Shown one piece after another: positions 10,549 to 15,941 of a stretch of 64,000 nt of DNA (positions are counted from its first letter, which is position 1; every line of letters begins with the position of its first letter). Under the pieces are notes generated by a model. It searched no databases and was not told the DNA's origin. It saw nothing but the letters and a program-made list of their open reading frames with translations. Made by a program: the position numbers and the translations under genes. Source of the DNA: Stigmatella ashevillena (lineage in GTDB: Bacteria; Myxococcota; Myxococcia; Myxococcales; Myxococcaceae); contig NZ_JAQNDM010000002.1 in the NCBI RefSeq assembly GCF_028368975.1, positions 7,806,425 through 7,870,424 of the forward strand, in the 5' to 3' direction.

Positions 10549-10857
10549 TCAGTGGCCGGAGGTGACGCCGCGCACGGTGTGCACCGCGGCGTCCACTTCG
10601 GCGAGGATGCGCCGCGCGTGGTGCAGGAAGGCCTCGCCCGCGGGCAGCAGGCGCATGCCGCGGGCCGTACGCTCGAAGAGCGGGGTGCCCAGCTCGTCCT
10701 CAAGGGCGAGGATGTGGCGGCTGAGGGGAGGCTGGGTGAGGTGCAGCCGACGAGCGGCCCGCCCCACGTGGCCTTCCTCGGCCACCGCCACGAAGGACTG
10801 GATGTACGTGAGACTCACGGTCGGCGAGTCTACCGCAAGTGGTGCGCCCCGTGTCAT
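10549..10857 (-). pseudogene. LysR-family regulator reduced to its HTH domain
   Basis: About 102 aa from the ATG giving MTRGAPLAVDSP. Residues ~12-75 are a clear LysR winged helix-turn-helix (LTYIQSFVAVAEEGHVGRAA, RRLHLTQPPLSRHI, LEDELGTPLFERTARG), followed by the linker helix and then a stop. Normal LysR proteins are ~300 aa with an effector domain that is absent here, and no continuation in another frame is visible because the metzincin-like gene begins 26 bp later. It could be a decayed gene or a functional mini-regulator. It is divergent from map with ~50 bp between. Confidence 0.7.
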
Positions 10858-10907
10858 GCCAAGGCAGCATTGGACGCTCCGCTCCCCCGGTGCCACCTTG
10901 CCGCGCC

Positions 10908-11675
10908 ATGGGCATTCCACTGTTGAAGGGCACGGAAGTCGAGCGTCTCCGTCTTGCGGGGCAGGCGGCGGCGGGAACGCTGGCGTACATCGCCACCCGC
11001 TTGGCGCCCGGCATCTCCACGGCGGACATTGATTCGTGGGTGAGGGAGGACACCGCGCGCCGCGGCGGCACCCCCAGCCAGCTGGGCTACAAGGGCTTCC
11101 CTGCCACGGTGTGCACCAGCCGCAACCAGGTCGTCTGCCATGGCATCCCGCGTCCCGATGAGCGCCTCGCCCCCGGGGACATCGTCAACGTTGACGTGAC
11201 GACGTGCCTGAATGGATTCCATGGGGACACCTCGGCCACGTTCCTCATCGGCGAGGTGTCCCAGGAGGCCCGGCACGTGGTGGATGTGGCGCGCCGGTGC
11301 CGGGAAGCGGGCATGGCGGTGGTGCGCCATGGCGCGCGGATGGGGGACATTGGCGCGGCCATCCAGGAACTGGCGCGGGCCGAGGGGTGCAGCGTGGTGG
11401 AGGAGTTCGGCGGCCATGGCATCGGCCGCAGCATGCACGGCCCTCCCCATGTGCCCCATGTGGGGCGCAAGGGCACGGGCATCACCTTGCGCTCGGGCAT
11501 GGTGCTCACCATCGAGCCCATGGTGAACCTGGGCCGTCCCGAGGTGCGCATCCTTCCGGACGGGTGGACGGTGGTGACGGCGGACGGAAGTCTCTCCGCC
11601 CAGTTCGAGCACACCGTCCTGGTGACGCGCGAGGGCTGCGAGGTGCTTACCCCTCCGTGCCCTCCCGTGGCATAG
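10908..11675 (+). CDS. map: Type I methionine aminopeptidase
   Basis: 255 aa starting at the ATG giving MGIPLLKGTEVERLRLAG. It removes the initiator Met from nascent proteins in the cytoplasm. Family marks are complete: CTSRNQVVCHGIP, metal-ligand Asp residues in GDIVNVDVTTCLNGFHGDTS, the His ligand in EEFGGHGIGRSMHGPPHVPH, and the two Glu ligands in LTIEPMVNLG and SAQFEHTVLVT. Length matches the type I enzymes. It is monocistronic in appearance, divergent from the truncated LysR gene. Confidence 0.95.
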   Translation: MGIPLLKGTEVERLRLAGQAAAGTLAYIATRLAPGISTADIDSWVREDTARRGGTPSQLGYKGFPATVCTSRNQVVCHGIPRPDERLAPGDIVNVDVTTCLNGFHGDTSATFLIGEVSQEARHVVDVARRCREAGMAVVRHGARMGDIGAAIQELARAEGCSVVEEFGGHGIGRSMHGPPHVPHVGRKGTGITLRSGMVLTIEPMVNLGRPEVRILPDGWTVVTADGSLSAQFEHTVLVTREGCEVLTPPCPPVA

Positions 11676-11905: not shown

Positions 11906-14330
11906 TTGAGCGATGCTGGATGGGCACCCGTGACCGTCGACGAGTTTGTTGAGCTGGTGGCCCGTGTCTCTGGGCCAAGCTGGCGTCCCAATCCTGAGCA
12001 GCATGCATGTCTGGTCGGCGATCCAGCGGTTCCCCTGCAGATCGCCGCGGGTCCGGGGTGTGGCAAAACCCTGACGCTGGTCCTGCGAGCGCTCCGGCAC
12101 GTGATGGTCGACCGGGTGTTGCCTGAGCGCATCATGATGACGACCTTCACGCGCAAGGCAGCAAAGGAGATACGGACGCGACTCATCGAGTGGGGCACGC
12201 CGCTCCTCGAAGAGGTCCTCGCGGGCCGGGCAGGGACGTTGGACGCTGCCTACCGCGCCTTCTTGCGACAGGTCGACATCAACCGGTTCGTGACCGGTAC
12301 CCTTGACAGCTTGTGTGAAGAGGCGCTTTCGGGAGCACGCGGGCCCGACGAACGGCCGCCGGTCGTGGTGGAGTCATTTGCCGCGAACCAACTGCTGGCC
12401 CGCCGCGGCGAGATCTACGACACCTCGCAGCGCCTGGGGCAGCCCTTTCTGGATTACCTGGGGCCCTATACCCATACGGGCGACCCGCCCGAAACGCTCG
12501 GCGACATGACGCGGGTGATTCGCACGCTCGTGGACCGCCTCGTCCAGGACGAGGTGGATCTCGCCGATTACGTGGGACCCGGTCCGCATCAAGTGGCCCG
12601 GCAGGCGATCGCCGAAATCTTCGAGCGCTACACGGCGTATCTCCGCGCGACCCACCAGATGGACTTTCCCACGCTGGAGCGTGTGTTCCTGGATCGGCTG
12701 CGTGCGGGCCGTGTGCCCGATCTGATGTCATCCCTTCGCGTTCTGCTCGTGGACGAGTACCAAGACACCAACCCGCTCCAGGAGCATATTTACCTGGAGC
12801 TTGCCCGCCAGACCGGGGCTGCTCTGACCGTCGTCGGGGACGACGACCAGTCGCTGTACCGGTTTCGGGGCGCCACGATCGAGCTCTTCCGGGACTTTCG
12901 CTCGCGGGCAGCCACCGCCCTCGGTGGCCAGACACCCCAGCTCCTCTACCTGACGCAGAACTACCGGTCGACCCCTGAAGTCGTCTCGTTCTTCAATGAC
13001 TTCATTCAGAATGATCCCGACTTCGCTCCGGCGCGAATCCAGCCCCCCCAAGCCGATGATCCGGGCGAACCAGCCCTCGGGCAAGGTGCCGGTGCTCGGG
13101 ATGTTCCGGAGCACTGCGGACGAACTCGCGGACGATCTGGCTGCCTTGCTGCATCAGGTGTTCCGGCAAGGAGGGCGCCCTGCCGATGCTCGGTTGGCGG
13201 AGCCGATCCGGGCCGCCTGCAATGGGGGCGATTTGGGGGATGCCGTGATCCTGGCGCACACGGTGAACGAGTTCCGGCGCGGATATAAGGGAACCCCGCC
13301 GTCCGAGCGTCTGCCTTGGCGGTTGCGGCAGAAGCTCTCGCAGCGGGGGGTGTCCTGTTTCAACCCGCGCGGCCGCTCCCTGAAGGATATTTCCGCGGTC
13401 GGGCGCGTGTTGGGGCTCGTGCTCGAGTGCCTCGATGCGGCCGAGCCGGGCAACGAGCAAGGCCGCATCGTTGCCGGTATGGCGGTGACCCACGCGGCGC
13501 GGAGCGTGTTCAGCCGCTGGCGCCAGGACGCCCAGGCGTTCTTGGCCACCCACCCGTCGGCGGTCATTCGGCGGGGGGAAAGCCTTCAGGAGGTGGTGGC
13601 GCGTTGGCGACGCTTCGCCCGGCATGGGCAGGGGCCCGGGGCCGAGTGGCCCCTGCTCGATGTGCTCTACAACCTGCTGCCGTGGATGCCGGCCTTCCAG
13701 GATGAGCCCGAGCATCAGGTCTATCTGGAGGCGATTTCGCGCACCGCCGCTCAGGCGGCCGCGTTTTCATCCTATCGCGCGCTGATCTTGCGCGATGAGC
13801 GGCACCGGACTCGCAGCATCCAAGCCGTGATCCAAGATGTGCTGGCACCGATCGCCGATGACCTGGTCGAGGTGGACGAGGACATCATGCCGAGCGTTCC
13901 TCGCGACCGGTTGAACCTGATGACCATCCACCAGGCCAAGGGTCTGGAGTTCCCCCTGGTCATCGTCGACATCTCGTCGGACTTCACTCGAAACCACCCC
14001 AAGCAGCGCTTCCGGCGCTTTCCCGACGAGCCCTCGCCGGTCACGCTCTTGGAGGACCATCTCGCCGCGTGCACCCCGATCGGGTCGCTCCGGACCGCCC
14101 GGACGGCCATCCAACGCAGCTTCGAGGACCTGATCCGGCTCTATTACGTCGCTTACAGCCGGCCGCAGAGTGTGCTCATGCTCGTCGGCTGCCTGCCCTG
14201 TCTTCGCTACAGCAAGACCCTCCCGCACGTCGCGACGTTCTGGCGCCGCGACGAGACGTGGGCCTGGCGTCAGCCGCTCTCGGGGCAGCCGCCTCCGATG
14301 GCAGACCGTCATCCGCTCACCCTCCTCTAG
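11906..14330 (+). pseudogene. UvrD/PcrA-type superfamily 1 helicase split by a one-base frameshift
   Basis: Two frames overlap: 11906-13288 (TTG start, or GTG at 11930) and a second ending at 14330. The first holds Walker A (AAGPGCGKTLTL), Ia (TFTRKAAKEI), II (LLVDEYQDTNP), III (VVGDDDQSLYRFRGA) and IV (LTQNYRSTPEVV). The second holds V (LNLMTIHQAKGLEFPLVIVD) and VI (LIRLYYVAYSRPQSVLML). Joining them at the C7 tract 13043-13049, with one C removed, gives a continuous ~808-aa SF1A helicase with every motif intact. So the break is recent, a sequencing error, or a slippage site. A PD-(D/E)XK nuclease gene follows 18 bp later, implying a helicase-nuclease machine. Confidence 0.85.
13043..13049 (+). 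repeat. C7 homopolymer at the helicase frame break
   Basis: Seven consecutive C residues mark the place where the helicase reading frame moves by one base. With six C the codons read Q-P-P-K-P-M-I-R and continue the downstream frame without interruption. Confidence 0.85.
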
Positions 14331-14348
14331 AGCGTCAGGACTCAGCCC

Positions 14349-15545
14349 ATGGAACTCGCTCTCAAGCGGCCTGACCGCATTGTCCCCGAGTACAGCCTGA
14401 CCGGAGACCTCCTCTCCTACCTGCGCTGCATGCTGCAGTACCGCTATTACAATGGCAGCGCGCTGCCTCCGTCGCGCCCCGTGCAGATGTGGTACGGCGA
14501 GTTCATCCACGGGATGCTGGAGGCTGCCTTCCGCCTGTGGGACGCGGCCGGAGGTGCGTTGCCATTTCCCTGGCCCTGTACGCCGTTGCCGGATGCCGGG
14601 CCGCCGCAGGCGCCGCCCCAGGGGCTCGCGCCGCACGACCTGCGCATCATCGGATGGCCGATCGAGGAGGCACTGGCTCACGAGGGCAAGAGGGCCCGGA
14701 GCCGCCGGGCACGGATCTCGGCCTATCGTCGCGCCGAGGCCGCGATCAATCTGCTCGGGCCGCAGTTGTTCCCGCTCATCGCCGACGCGGAGCAGAAGGT
14801 GATCGGCACCCGGCTTTTGCCACCCCTTCCCCAGGGCCCGCCGCTGCGCTCCGAGCGCTACGCGCTGCACGGAGTCATCGACGTCCTCACGAATGTGGAG
14901 TTGGCGAGCGCTGGGCCGGGAAACATCGTTCGCGAGGCGGTCGAGGCGGCGTGTCCGGGACTCACGGGCACGTTTGAAGTGATTGTCGACTACAAAGGGT
15001 CTCACCGGCCCGCGACGGACGAGTCGCATTGGTCCCTGGGTGAGTGGCAGGTCCAGACCTACGCATGGCTTCGGCAGCGGCAGCAGCTCGCCCATCCGGT
15101 GGCGGCTGGCATCTTGATCTATGTGAATGAGCTGGCGCCGGGCGGCGATGACATCCGCCGCTTGCGGAGCGACATCGAGCGAGGCCAGGCCGATGTGGCT
15201 CCAGAGCGCGGCAGCCCTGATTTTTATGCGTTGCAGGCCTGGACCCCTGGCTCCGCTTCGGGCCTGTCGGAGGCGTTCCGCTTTCGCCGGGCGCTCCGCG
15301 TCATTCCGATCACCGAAGCGAGCATCGCGCGAGCGACCCGCGAGTTTGATCGGACTGTGTCCGACATCGAAAGCCAGGTGATCGAGGAGGCAACGCGGGG
15401 CAGCATCCTGGCGACGTGGCCGCCCACGTCTCGCGATCCGGAGACCTGCATTGCCTGCGACTTCCGCTTCTTCTGCCCAAATCCCGCGGCCTCGTCGCCA
15501 GCGCTCACCGCCGAGCCCTCGTTGGCCGACGATGATGACCTGTGA
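14349..15545 (+). CDS. PD-(D/E)XK nuclease with predicted 4Fe-4S cluster (RecB/AddB/Cas4-like)
   Basis: 398 aa. Nuclease motifs: GEFIHGMLEAAFR (early His motif), VIVDYKG with D214-Y-K216, and EWQVQTYAWL (Q-x3-Y). A single Cys27 near the N-terminus plus C367-x2-C370-x5-C376 at the C-terminus reproduce the split four-cysteine arrangement that holds an iron-sulfur cluster in AddB and Cas4 nucleases. It lies 18 bp after the UvrD-like helicase on the same strand, so the pair probably works on DNA ends, either in recombinational repair or in defence against foreign DNA. It ends in an acidic DDDD tail. No Cas1, adenylase or methylase gene is adjacent. Confidence 0.88.
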   Translation: MELALKRPDRIVPEYSLTGDLLSYLRCMLQYRYYNGSALPPSRPVQMWYGEFIHGMLEAAFRLWDAAGGALPFPWPCTPLPDAGPPQAPPQGLAPHDLRIIGWPIEEALAHEGKRARSRRARISAYRRAEAAINLLGPQLFPLIADAEQKVIGTRLLPPLPQGPPLRSERYALHGVIDVLTNVELASAGPGNIVREAVEAACPGLTGTFEVIVDYKGSHRPATDESHWSLGEWQVQTYAWLRQRQQLAHPVAAGILIYVNELAPGGDDIRRLRSDIERGQADVAPERGSPDFYALQAWTPGSASGLSEAFRFRRALRVIPITEASIARATREFDRTVSDIESQVIEEATRGSILATWPPTSRDPETCIACDFRFFCPNPAASSPALTAEPSLADDDDL

Positions 15546-15578: not shown

Positions 15579-15941
15579 CTAGGGGTCTCGGTGCACGGTG
15601 TCCGGGGAGAACGCCGGCAGGCAGACGGCGATGTATTCGGCGCCCTCCTCGCCGGGCGTGCTGTAGCGGATCCATTCTCCGGGCTCACACACCACGCCCT
15701 GGCCCGCGCGGACGTCGAGCGAACCCCCCCGGTGCTCTACGCGCAACCAGCCCTTGAGCACCACGGTGTACTCGCGGAAGGTGGGTGTCTGCCCGGGCTC
15801 GACCCAGCCCCCGGGGCTGCGCATGTGGGCCACGCTCAGCTCCCCCGTCTTCGAGTTCACCCTTCCCACGTATTCGTCGATGAGCTTCGGCTTGTTGCCC
15901 GCGGCTTCCACGCGGGTGGGGGAGGGGATGAGGGTCGGCAA
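15579..15941 (-). CDS. Small cupin-domain protein
   Basis: 120 aa, TTG start with GGAG 7-9 bases upstream. Single conserved beta-barrel: TFREYTVVLKGWLRVEHRGGSLDVRAGQGVVCEPGEWIRYSTPG, i.e. the G(X)5-type first motif, a mid-barrel Gly loop, and the PGEWIRYS second motif. Several metal-binding histidines usual in cupin motif 1 are replaced, so a catalytic role is doubtful and a ligand-binding role more likely. Convergent with the nuclease gene and only 33 bp from its end. Confidence 0.85.
   Translation of the reverse strand: MPTLIPSPTRVEAAGNKPKLIDEYVGRVNSKTGELSVAHMRSPGGWVEPGQTPTFREYTVVLKGWLRVEHRGGSLDVRAGQGVVCEPGEWIRYSTPGEEGAEYIAVCLPAFSPDTVHRDP

Follow-up and report, generated by a model that had tools for sequence, protein, structure and literature searches.

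A UvrD-type helicase and an AddB-type nuclease encoded side by side form a probable mobile restriction effector of 7-deazaguanine DNA-modification systems

The window analysed here, a stretch of 64,000 nucleotides from Stigmatella ashevillena (contig NZ_JAQNDM010000002.1), carries a helicase gene directly followed by a nuclease gene. The relevant features are (positions within the window):

10839..11675, + strand: Peptidase_M24 gene of the methionine aminopeptidase type (Pfam 6.5e-49), left edge of the variable interval
11930..13288, + strand: UvrD/AddA-type helicase, frame a, with motifs I, Ia, II, III and IV (Pfam UvrD-helicase 3.1e-41)
12996..14330, + strand: UvrD/AddA-type helicase, frame b, with motifs V and VI (Pfam UvrD_C 1.6e-8)
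13043..13049, + strand: C run at the junction of helicase frames a and b, seen in the sequence; sole intragenic length difference from the sister species (G005)
14349..15545, + strand: AddB/Cas4-type Fe-S PD-(D/E)XK nuclease of 398 aa, intact (PDDEXK_1 4.3e-10)
15579..15941, - strand: small cupin gene (Cupin_2 3e-6), right edge of the variable interval

A sequence-only reading had placed a complete SF1A motif set 18 bp before the nuclease. The UvrD-type helicase and the 18 bp between helicase stop and nuclease stand, but the motifs are split over two frames (I, Ia, II, III and IV in frame a, V and VI in frame b). As a listed open reading frame, frame a opens at TTG 11906 (11906-13288), and alignment with the intact G005 copy points to GTG 11930 as the likely start of the helicase instead. 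In G005 the helicase is whole, a single frame of 799 codons (L036:7016-9415). Compared with this copy, the window shows one length difference on the scale of a single base, at the C run around 13043-13049, and no other across the roughly 2.4 kb of the gene. Homology in frame b starts near 13044, and a Bradyrhizobium helicase used as tblastn query matched 13044-14327 at 67% identity. Programmed frameshifting at the C run was rejected: the G005 gene runs uninterrupted in one frame, which shows that no shift is conserved. Values of dN/dS against G005 were 0.25-0.29 for the nuclease and the two helicase halves (0.26 and 0.29 for the halves), and the break would therefore be either very recent or an assembly or sequencing error. 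That the window helicase is a true pseudogene, and the window thus holds a relic of the system, could go either way: two frames here against one intact frame in the sister species speak for it, while a single length difference in about 2.4 kb, located at a homopolymer, and the lack of excess amino-acid change in either half speak against it, and an assembly error would look alike. This reading is compatible with all others discussed below and concerns the window copy, not the helicase-nuclease family.

The nuclease signature proposed earlier (D-Y-K, Q-x3-Y and Cys27 plus C-x2-C-x5-C) was recovered as C27, D214-Y-K216, Q234-x3-Y238 and C367-x2-C370-x5-C376. Together with H54, E148 and D178 it is invariant in 27/27 aligned sequences and thus not a product of chance. 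PDDEXK_1 is the sole domain of the protein, which has no helicase part. A phmmer search of PDB sequences with the nuclease gave no match, and its AF2 model (pLDDT 82) matched AddB best among PDB structures (Z 14.6); ACE1 (Z 13.8) and Cas4 (Z 11.6) also matched. The helicase fold matched AdnB (Z 26.6 over 598 residues) and AddA (Z 21.0). Neither protein showed a recognisable domain for reading modifications. With Cas4 and the Argonaute-associated Cas4-family protein ACE1 the nuclease shares the Fe-S PD-(D/E)XK fold, and all four of its PADLOC matches were Cas4 models; unlike Cas4, however, it is partnered with a helicase, and its NCBIfam cas4 score of 24.9 bits is below the cut-off of 65. Gabija (GajAB) likewise has a UvrD-type helicase adjoining a nuclease gene, and GajB profiles gave generic matches (best 1e-29). 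Gabija was nevertheless rejected because the partner nuclease is from another family, PDDEXK_1/AddB-like and not the OLD-type TOPRIM of GajA. A further difference is the link of the pair to the DNA-modification enzyme DpdA (see below).

Both flanks, predicted before as a housekeeping gene and a small cupin gene, were confirmed as Peptidase_M24 and Cupin_2, and DNA matches to both were found in 6/6 genus mates searched. The interval between them differs within the genus; G002, G003 and G006 are uninformative on its width, as the two flanks match separate contigs. The pair itself is patchy, being present in 2/7 genomes of the genus and 7/98 relatives, and helicase and nuclease adjoin in every convincing case examined. 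Leaving aside the sister species (86%), Bradyrhizobium (72%) is nearer to the window than are members of the same family (53% in G020; 58% and 50% in two pieces in G009). The pair has apparently moved horizontally. The suggestion of an accessory insert thus held up: the two genes are found together, and not in an invariant core locus.

The fold matches would suit a compact AddAB/AdnAB-like pair that processes DNA ends for repair, a reading that we consider very unlikely. With AddAB and AdnAB the pair shares an AddA/AdnB-like helicase fold, an AddB-like nuclease fold and the cysteines of a predicted Fe-S cluster (C27 and C367/C370/C376). In AddAB and AdnAB both subunits are large and include a helicase-type part, whereas here the 398-aa nuclease is separate, the helicase of about 800 aa lacks a nuclease domain, and a second helicase-scaffold subunit is absent. 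Scanned apart, the helicase halves reached 85.4 and 31.2 bits with the addA model TIGR02785 (cut-off 707.65). The accessory distribution and the closer relationship to Bradyrhizobium than to G020 and G009 also argue against a repair role. A stand-alone AddAB analogue was accordingly rejected on its subunit build and distribution.

The specific partner, which the sequence-only reading had missed, is the 7-deazaguanine DNA-modification enzyme DpdA, by which 7-deazaguanine is inserted into DNA. Among 20 genome_contigs loci found by the nuclease sequence alone, 19/20 lay in DpdA-bearing genomes and 13/20 had dpdA within 10 kb; the loci come from 19 genomes with redundancy kept, and 4/20 are from Ensifer. 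The NCBIfam cut-off check covered 8 of the 13 local DpdA proteins, and the other five were assigned by their identity of 51-61% with the DpdA of Bradyrhizobium. In two more loci, from Polyangium and Rubellimicrobium, dpdA is on the contig of the pair at a distance of about 21-22 kb, and queC is present in the locus stretch of 7/20. Three relatives were found on plasmids, a second query retrieving no others, and dpdA was near the pair in all of them; on the plasmid of Bradyrhizobium 41S5, dpdA, two dpdB genes and queC/D/E adjoin it. Gene-to-gene operons of dpdA, helicase and nuclease occur in L017, L022, L023, L026 and L027 (DpdA scores 314-357 bits, cut-off 200) and in the IMG/VR contig L097. 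Some compact operons consist of dpdA and the pair, with no other dpd gene in the locus stretch examined. On a second IMG/VR contig, L098, dpdA was not found in the 17 kb examined.

A DpdA query matched 14/14 pair genomes searched at E<=0.001 and 13/14 at E<=3.3e-51; the 14th, an archaeon with a match of 5e-4, was counted as having none. In the archaeal locus (L032, 38-40% nuclease identity) the neighbours of the pair encode a phosphoesterase and an ATPase of SMC type, and no convincing DpdA was seen. Among 98 relatives, 7/7 pair genomes fell among the 11 with DpdA (P=2e-8), and among 195 genomes of the phylum 8/8 convincing pair genomes fell among the 16 with DpdA (P=3e-10); all P values are nominal, since the genomes are related and not independent. 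G196, which has no DpdA match and whose fragment scores 45 bits and contains three stops, was left out as a convincing pair. Counting it as a miss gave 8/9 in the phylum sample (P=2.5e-9) and, at genus level, DpdA in 6/7 versus 8/90 (nominal P=3e-7). In G053 the helicase beside dpd is more divergent and the nuclease match scores 46 bits; this genome was counted as pair-negative. The nuclease profile A1 includes the divergent L067 and L070, which were found through adjoining dpdA, and may have helped to detect G156; the single-sequence nuclease search that gave the seven pair genomes among the 98 relatives is free of this bias. Within the order to which the Bradyrhizobium genome belongs, DpdA was present in 3/297 genomes, and the nuclease profile matched the central Bradyrhizobium genome alone (1/297), while the two others had DpdA without the nuclease. 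That is, DpdA occurs without the pair, but the pair almost never without DpdA. The link between the pair and Dpd is well supported.

This link does not depend on proximity in six pair genomes of the sample. In the window genome (G000), G005 and G013, dpdA lies megabases from the pair on the same contig, and in G009, G020 and G033 the two are on different contigs. Tight co-evolution with DpdA was not seen: distances of the pair and DpdA correlated weakly (r=0.30-0.34, permutation P of 0.001 or less), compared with 0.95 for helicase and nuclease, and such looser coupling is what an exchange of pairs among Dpd systems would produce. It would also suit an antiphage helicase-nuclease that acts on its own, in the manner of Gabija or Hna, and is carried on the same islands and mobile elements as Dpd without needing it. 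The G020 pair, which adjoins an integrase gene in a stretch of about 6.7 kb common to an island of G004, is consistent with this idea, as are the variable interval that holds the window pair and the archaeal pair without convincing DpdA. Shared islands, however, do not account for the co-occurrence in G000, G005 and G013, and DpdA is uncommon (11/98, 16/195 and 3/297); we therefore regard independence from Dpd as rather unlikely. The earlier proposal of a compact AddAB analogue or antiphage module survives in the folds, which are like AddA/AdnB and AddB. Since the pair goes with DpdA, nearby in most distant bacteria and in trans in the window genome, a stand-alone AddAB or Gabija-like system is not the best reading.

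The window genome carries an intact operon of a dpdC-like gene, dpdA and dpdB, 4.2 Mb from the pair. DpdA, an open frame in L063, reached 563.6 bits with NF041059 (cut-off 200), and the adjoining DpdB (L063 11060-12181) 466.9 bits with NF041060 (cut-off 300). The DpdC-like gene, a 333-aa ORF upstream of dpdA that overlaps the start of its frame, had no NCBIfam match and 20 bits with DUF6884, below the cut-off of 30; in further dpd loci of myxobacteria, relatives of it precede dpdA or dpdB. A QueC relative is encoded elsewhere in the genome (41%, E 5.4e-28). Because the helicase frame is interrupted, the effector in this genome is probably inactive as sequenced, despite the intact modification operon.

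The type example of Dpd is the dpdA-K cluster of Salmonella Montevideo. With such islands the window genome shares DpdA and DpdB above NCBIfam cut-offs and, putatively, a DpdC-type protein encoded by the DpdC-like gene. Unlike a typical Dpd locus, it has its pair 4.2 Mb away from dpdA, although the two stand together in many other genomes. The canonical restriction operon comprises dpdD to dpdK (PMC11888242). These genes encode SNF2, DEAD/DEAH and YprA helicases and a PLD-type nuclease (PMC11888242 and PMC12458937), whereas the pair combines a UvrD-type SF1 helicase with an Fe-S PD-(D/E)XK nuclease. BRIGADE, a Dpd-like system of haloarchaea, resembles the pair's setting in that its 7-deazaguanine cluster includes helicases and, at times, a PD-(D/E)xK nuclease, but is defined by YprA-family SF2 helicases (PMC12458937), not by a UvrD-type SF1 enzyme. 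The open literature searched, with partial coverage that leaves room for an earlier mention, yielded no description of a UvrD/RecB-like pair in dpd clusters.

DpdH had no match in the window genome. DpdE gave below-cut-off matches alone there (best 269.6 bits versus 500), as in 14/14 control genomes, and has little value as a marker, since cross-matches to SNF2 helicases turn up everywhere. Among the 16 DpdA-positive genomes of the phylum, DpdH was present in 0/8 with the pair versus 4/8 without it (nominal P=0.04); two of these four matches (G047 and G132) are below the family cut-off, and that of G132 is far from its dpdA. A strict replacement of DpdD-K was rejected: Polyangium and Rubellimicrobium carry DpdH and DpdE over cut-offs together with the pair, which is therefore not a simple substitute.

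The pair might serve modification itself, the helicase providing ATP-driven strand opening for DpdA and the nuclease trimming or resetting intermediates. No dpdB-like gene was seen near the pair in stretches of 6.6 to 21 kb of L017, L022, L023 and L025-L028, where dpdA, helicase and nuclease are close, and DpdB is described in PMC12839542 as the ATPase for preQ0 insertion, suggested to be dispensable in certain clusters. We nonetheless judge such a helper function unlikely, as a convincing pair is missing in 8/16 DpdA-positive genomes of the phylum sample, the window genome carries dpdB too, and the nuclease catalytic residues are all invariant although not obviously needed for this role.

We favour instead, with a probability of roughly two in three, a role for the pair as a mobile restriction effector in Dpd systems, which modify DNA with 7-deazaguanine; its use in place of the canonical DpdD-K genes, or alongside them, is the best explanation of the patterns described. 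DpdA, DpdB and the DpdC-like protein would place a 7-deazaguanine mark, dPreQ0 or dADG, in the host's DNA. On incoming DNA that lacks the mark, the UvrD-type helicase would load and unwind the duplex, and the Fe-S nuclease would cut the emerging strands, a division of labour like that between the motor of AddA/AdnB and the nuclease domain of AddB. On self DNA, the mark would block or stall the helicase-nuclease. We infer that the pair restricts DNA rather than modifying or repairing it, that it senses when the mark is missing, and that the steps run in this order. The odds are about even for a broader proposal, a compact 7-deazaguanine restriction-modification class reducible to dpdA, a UvrD-type helicase and an AddB-type Fe-S nuclease. 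Here, the mark would spare DNA from an AddAB-like end-degrading machine, and the mobile cassette, at times with an integrase, would plug into resident dpd operons in trans and so explain restriction by 'modification-only' dpd islands of the kind reported for myxobacteria.

A 2025 review states of the restriction activity linked to 7-deazaguanine marking that it 'has not been further explored' (PMC12707154). With a form of just three genes, in which motor and nuclease can be recognised, the cutting of unmarked DNA by Dpd could be tested in vitro. Archangium is named, in PMC11888242, among dpd islands scored as lacking a restriction operon. If the favoured reading is true, an effector would be supplied to islands scored in this way, and the modification and restriction halves could sit megabases apart and be exchanged separately.

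Among viral sequences, no relative was found in the phage collection, and PHROGs gave a generic helicase family and otherwise weak matches alone; the pair is present on both IMG/VR contigs, L097 and L098. G013 carries a second, partial nuclease match of about 61 residues within a 972-aa frame.

A UvrD/AddA-type helicase and an AddB/Cas4-type Fe-S PD-(D/E)XK nuclease are encoded by neighbouring genes of the window, at the positions proposed for them in the sequence-only reading:

The helicase-nuclease pair in the window
11906-13288 (as listed): helicase frame a, Pfam UvrD-helicase 3.1e-41
12996-14330: helicase frame b, overlapping frame a, Pfam UvrD_C 1.6e-8
14349-15545: nuclease, 398 aa, starting 18 bp past the helicase stop, Pfam PDDEXK_1 4.3e-10

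The nuclease signature was borne out. C27, D214-Y-K216, Q234, Y238, C367, C370 and C376 are invariant in 27/27 aligned sequences, as are H54, E148 and D178, and we take the invariant residues to be a full RecB/AddB-type active site plus a four-cysteine Fe-S signature. The AlphaFold2 model (mean pLDDT 82, but <50 from residue 371 onward, inside the C-terminal cysteine region) matched best the AddB nuclease domain (Z 14.6, 277 residues); further matches were ACE1 (Z 13.8), AdnA (Z 13.2) and a Cas4 (Z 11.6).

For the helicase, a complete motif set had been claimed. Motifs I, Ia, II, III and IV do lie in frame a, but V and VI occur only in frame b. In the sister species (G005) the gene is a single frame of 799 codons. 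Compared with it, the window copy shows one intragenic length difference of single-base scale, at a C run near 13043; dN/dS against the same species is 0.26 and 0.29 for the two helicase pieces and 0.25 for the nuclease. Together these findings argue for a gene either freshly broken or mis-sequenced; uninterrupted copies exist in other genomes. The Bradyrhizobium macuxiense helicase was modelled (pLDDT 85.7) and compared with known structures: within the ten best matches, PcrA/Rep/UvrD gave Z 25.6-28.4 and 382-469 aligned residues, while AdnB gave Z 26.6 over 598 residues and AddA Z 21.0 over 636 residues. Because the AdnB and AddA alignments are longer, the model suggests that the motor is AddA/AdnB-like and not simply a UvrD. 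Neither in the helicase nor in the nuclease was a modification-reading domain recognised.

The helicase and nuclease genes are neighbours in 20/20 genome-contig loci, 3/3 plasmids, 2/2 IMG/VR contigs and, in the phylum sample, all 8 genomes with a convincing pair; in G009 a contig end truncates the nuclease. Across 22 systems, with G005 in place of the window's split copy, the pairwise distances of helicase and nuclease correlate at r 0.95. Bradyrhizobium macuxiense carries two pairs (L067 13247-16845 and L013 7594-11197): one is divergent and lies next to dpdA, the other is closely related to the window pair and lies ~240 kb off on the same contig. G096 (L038 3270-14804) has two on one strand, ~4.6 kb apart. 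G053 (L077 3095-6404) has, beside dpdC-like/dpdA/dpdB, a UvrD helicase that is more divergent (225 bits with the helicase profile) and an ORF that matches the nuclease profile at 46 bits.

The sequence-only reading, which saw a compact AddAB analogue or antiphage module, had missed the partner of the pair, namely 7-deazaguanine DNA modification (Dpd), whose mark is inserted by DpdA. A nuclease-only search brought in 20 loci, 19 of them in genomes with DpdA; protein comparison placed dpdA inside the fetched stretch in 13. The order dpdA-helicase-nuclease, with no intervening gene, was found in Thiosymbion, Nitrospira, HGW-Deltaproteobacteria, Thermoanaerobaculia and Thermoguttaceae loci (DpdA 314-357 bits, cut-off 200) and in an IMG/VR contig. 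On a Bradyrhizobium 41S5 plasmid, dpdA, two dpdB and queC/D/E (record annotation) adjoin the pair. The distance to dpdA is ~9 kb on a Picosynechococcus plasmid and ~21-22 kb, on the same contig, in Polyangium and Rubellimicrobium, while two Bradyrhizobium species, a Rhodospirillales MAG and Pelotomaculum carry dpdA elsewhere in the genome. In the genome of a Methanobacteriaceae archaeon the DpdA query gave an 18-bit match only, counted as none; there (L032 3734-11185) an SMC/Rad50-type ATPase and a calcineurin-like phosphoesterase gene precede the pair, and the cassette may serve another sensor.

In the window's own genome (G000) a dpd gene row lies 4.2 Mb from the pair:

The dpd row of G000
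C2:3.596 Mb: open DpdA gene, 563.6 bits
in a row with dpdA: DpdB gene, 466.9 bits (cut-off 300)
upstream in the same row: DUF6884-like, DpdC-like gene, 20 bits (below cut-off)

Of 98 relatives, 7 have the nuclease and 11 have DpdA; 7/7 pair genomes are DpdA-positive (nominal p 2e-8). The nuclease profile matched 9 of 195 phylum genomes; one match, in the DpdA-negative G196, is a 45-bit fragment interrupted by three stops and was not counted as a convincing pair. All 8 convincing pair genomes are among the 16 with DpdA (p 3e-10; with G196 as a miss, 2.5e-9), and at genus level, again with G196 as a miss, the phylum sample gives 6/7 versus 8/90 (p 3e-7). DpdA is uncommon: among 297 genomes of the order to which the Bradyrhizobium genome belongs, 3 have DpdA, this centre genome included, and 1, the centre itself, has the pair.

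In the phylum sample DpdA occurs without a convincing pair in 8/16 genomes, the convincing pair without DpdA in 0/8. Judged from gene content, this one-sided relation is the pattern that a restriction gene harmful to an unmarked cell would leave; the main rival readings are that the pair acts in the modification reaction itself, or that it is an independent defence module. As a restriction mechanism we propose that DpdA/B (and C) would mark self DNA, that the helicase would load on unmarked DNA and feed the nuclease in AddAB fashion, and that the mark would stop helicase, nuclease or both. The data show the motor and active-site residues, the co-occurrence with DpdA and its asymmetry; how the mark is sensed, and which way it discriminates, is what we infer here.

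The available text of PMC11888242 and PMC12458937 assigns canonical Dpd restriction to dpdD-K, whose helicases are of SNF2, DEAD/DEAH and YprA type and whose nuclease is PLD-type, whereas here a UvrD-type helicase stands with an Fe-S nuclease. BRIGADE of haloarchaea likewise differs: its 7-deazaguanine cluster comes with YprA helicases and, in occasional cases, a PD-(D/E)xK nuclease (available text of PMC12458937). The open literature searched, with the founding Dpd papers outside it, gave no description of a UvrD-type helicase plus Fe-S nuclease in Dpd, and mentioned 'DpdA' and 'UvrD' together only in a phage study.

Among the 16 DpdA-positive phylum genomes, DpdH occurs in 0/8 with the pair and 4/8 without (nominal p 0.04), over the cut-off in G002 and G076 and below it in G047 and G132. 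Beside dpdA, G047 has DpdE/F/G-like and G076 DpdH/J/K-like genes, all below family cut-offs for the pieces scanned. In Polyangium and Rubellimicrobium the pair shares a contig with DpdE and DpdH, which rules out a strict substitute for DpdD-K and points to an alternative or additional effector. Near two dpd loci (L033 13212-15177, L020 18994-20985) a gene with weak HNH-nuclease matches keeps company with a gene that has a below-cut-off DGQHR (DpdB-like) match. In Picosynechococcus (L035 1468-24509) and G096 (L038 17784-19899; L074 3-11229) a second, shorter TGT homologue accompanies DpdA, between or beside two DEAD/DEAH helicases and near a NurA nuclease and an ATP-binding protein gene; these loci are perhaps a further Dpd-like subtype.

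The window nuclease is 86% identical to that of the sister species and 72% to that of Bradyrhizobium, versus 53% to same-family G020 and 58% and 50% to two pieces in G009. G005 shares the pair locus, and its DpdA is closest to other myxobacteria (59-70% in 5/6 compared; 35% to G096, versus 38% to Bradyrhizobium). This kinship mismatch, and a pair-DpdA distance correlation of r 0.30-0.34, above chance (permutation p 0.001 or less), suggest that the cassette has probably been passed between genomes separately from the modification operon.

The pair lies in a variable interval bounded by an M24 peptidase gene and a cupin gene. It spans 14 kb in G001 and ~29.6 kb in G004, and its two flanks match different contigs in G002, G003 and G006. 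The G004 island (L095, L096) contains an integrase-like ORF, a UvrD helicase, and HMUDK_hel and MazG_C genes, by Pfam name a 5-hydroxymethyldeoxyuridine-type pair. About 6.7 kb of it, aligned in five pieces of 87-96% identity, recurs next to the G020 pair (L037), where an integrase, kinases and an HTH gene lie; at the place of the G020 pair, G004 has another UvrD helicase. In G004 the UvrD gene is flanked on both sides by ~175-bp repeats, and G020 has one such repeat beyond the pair.
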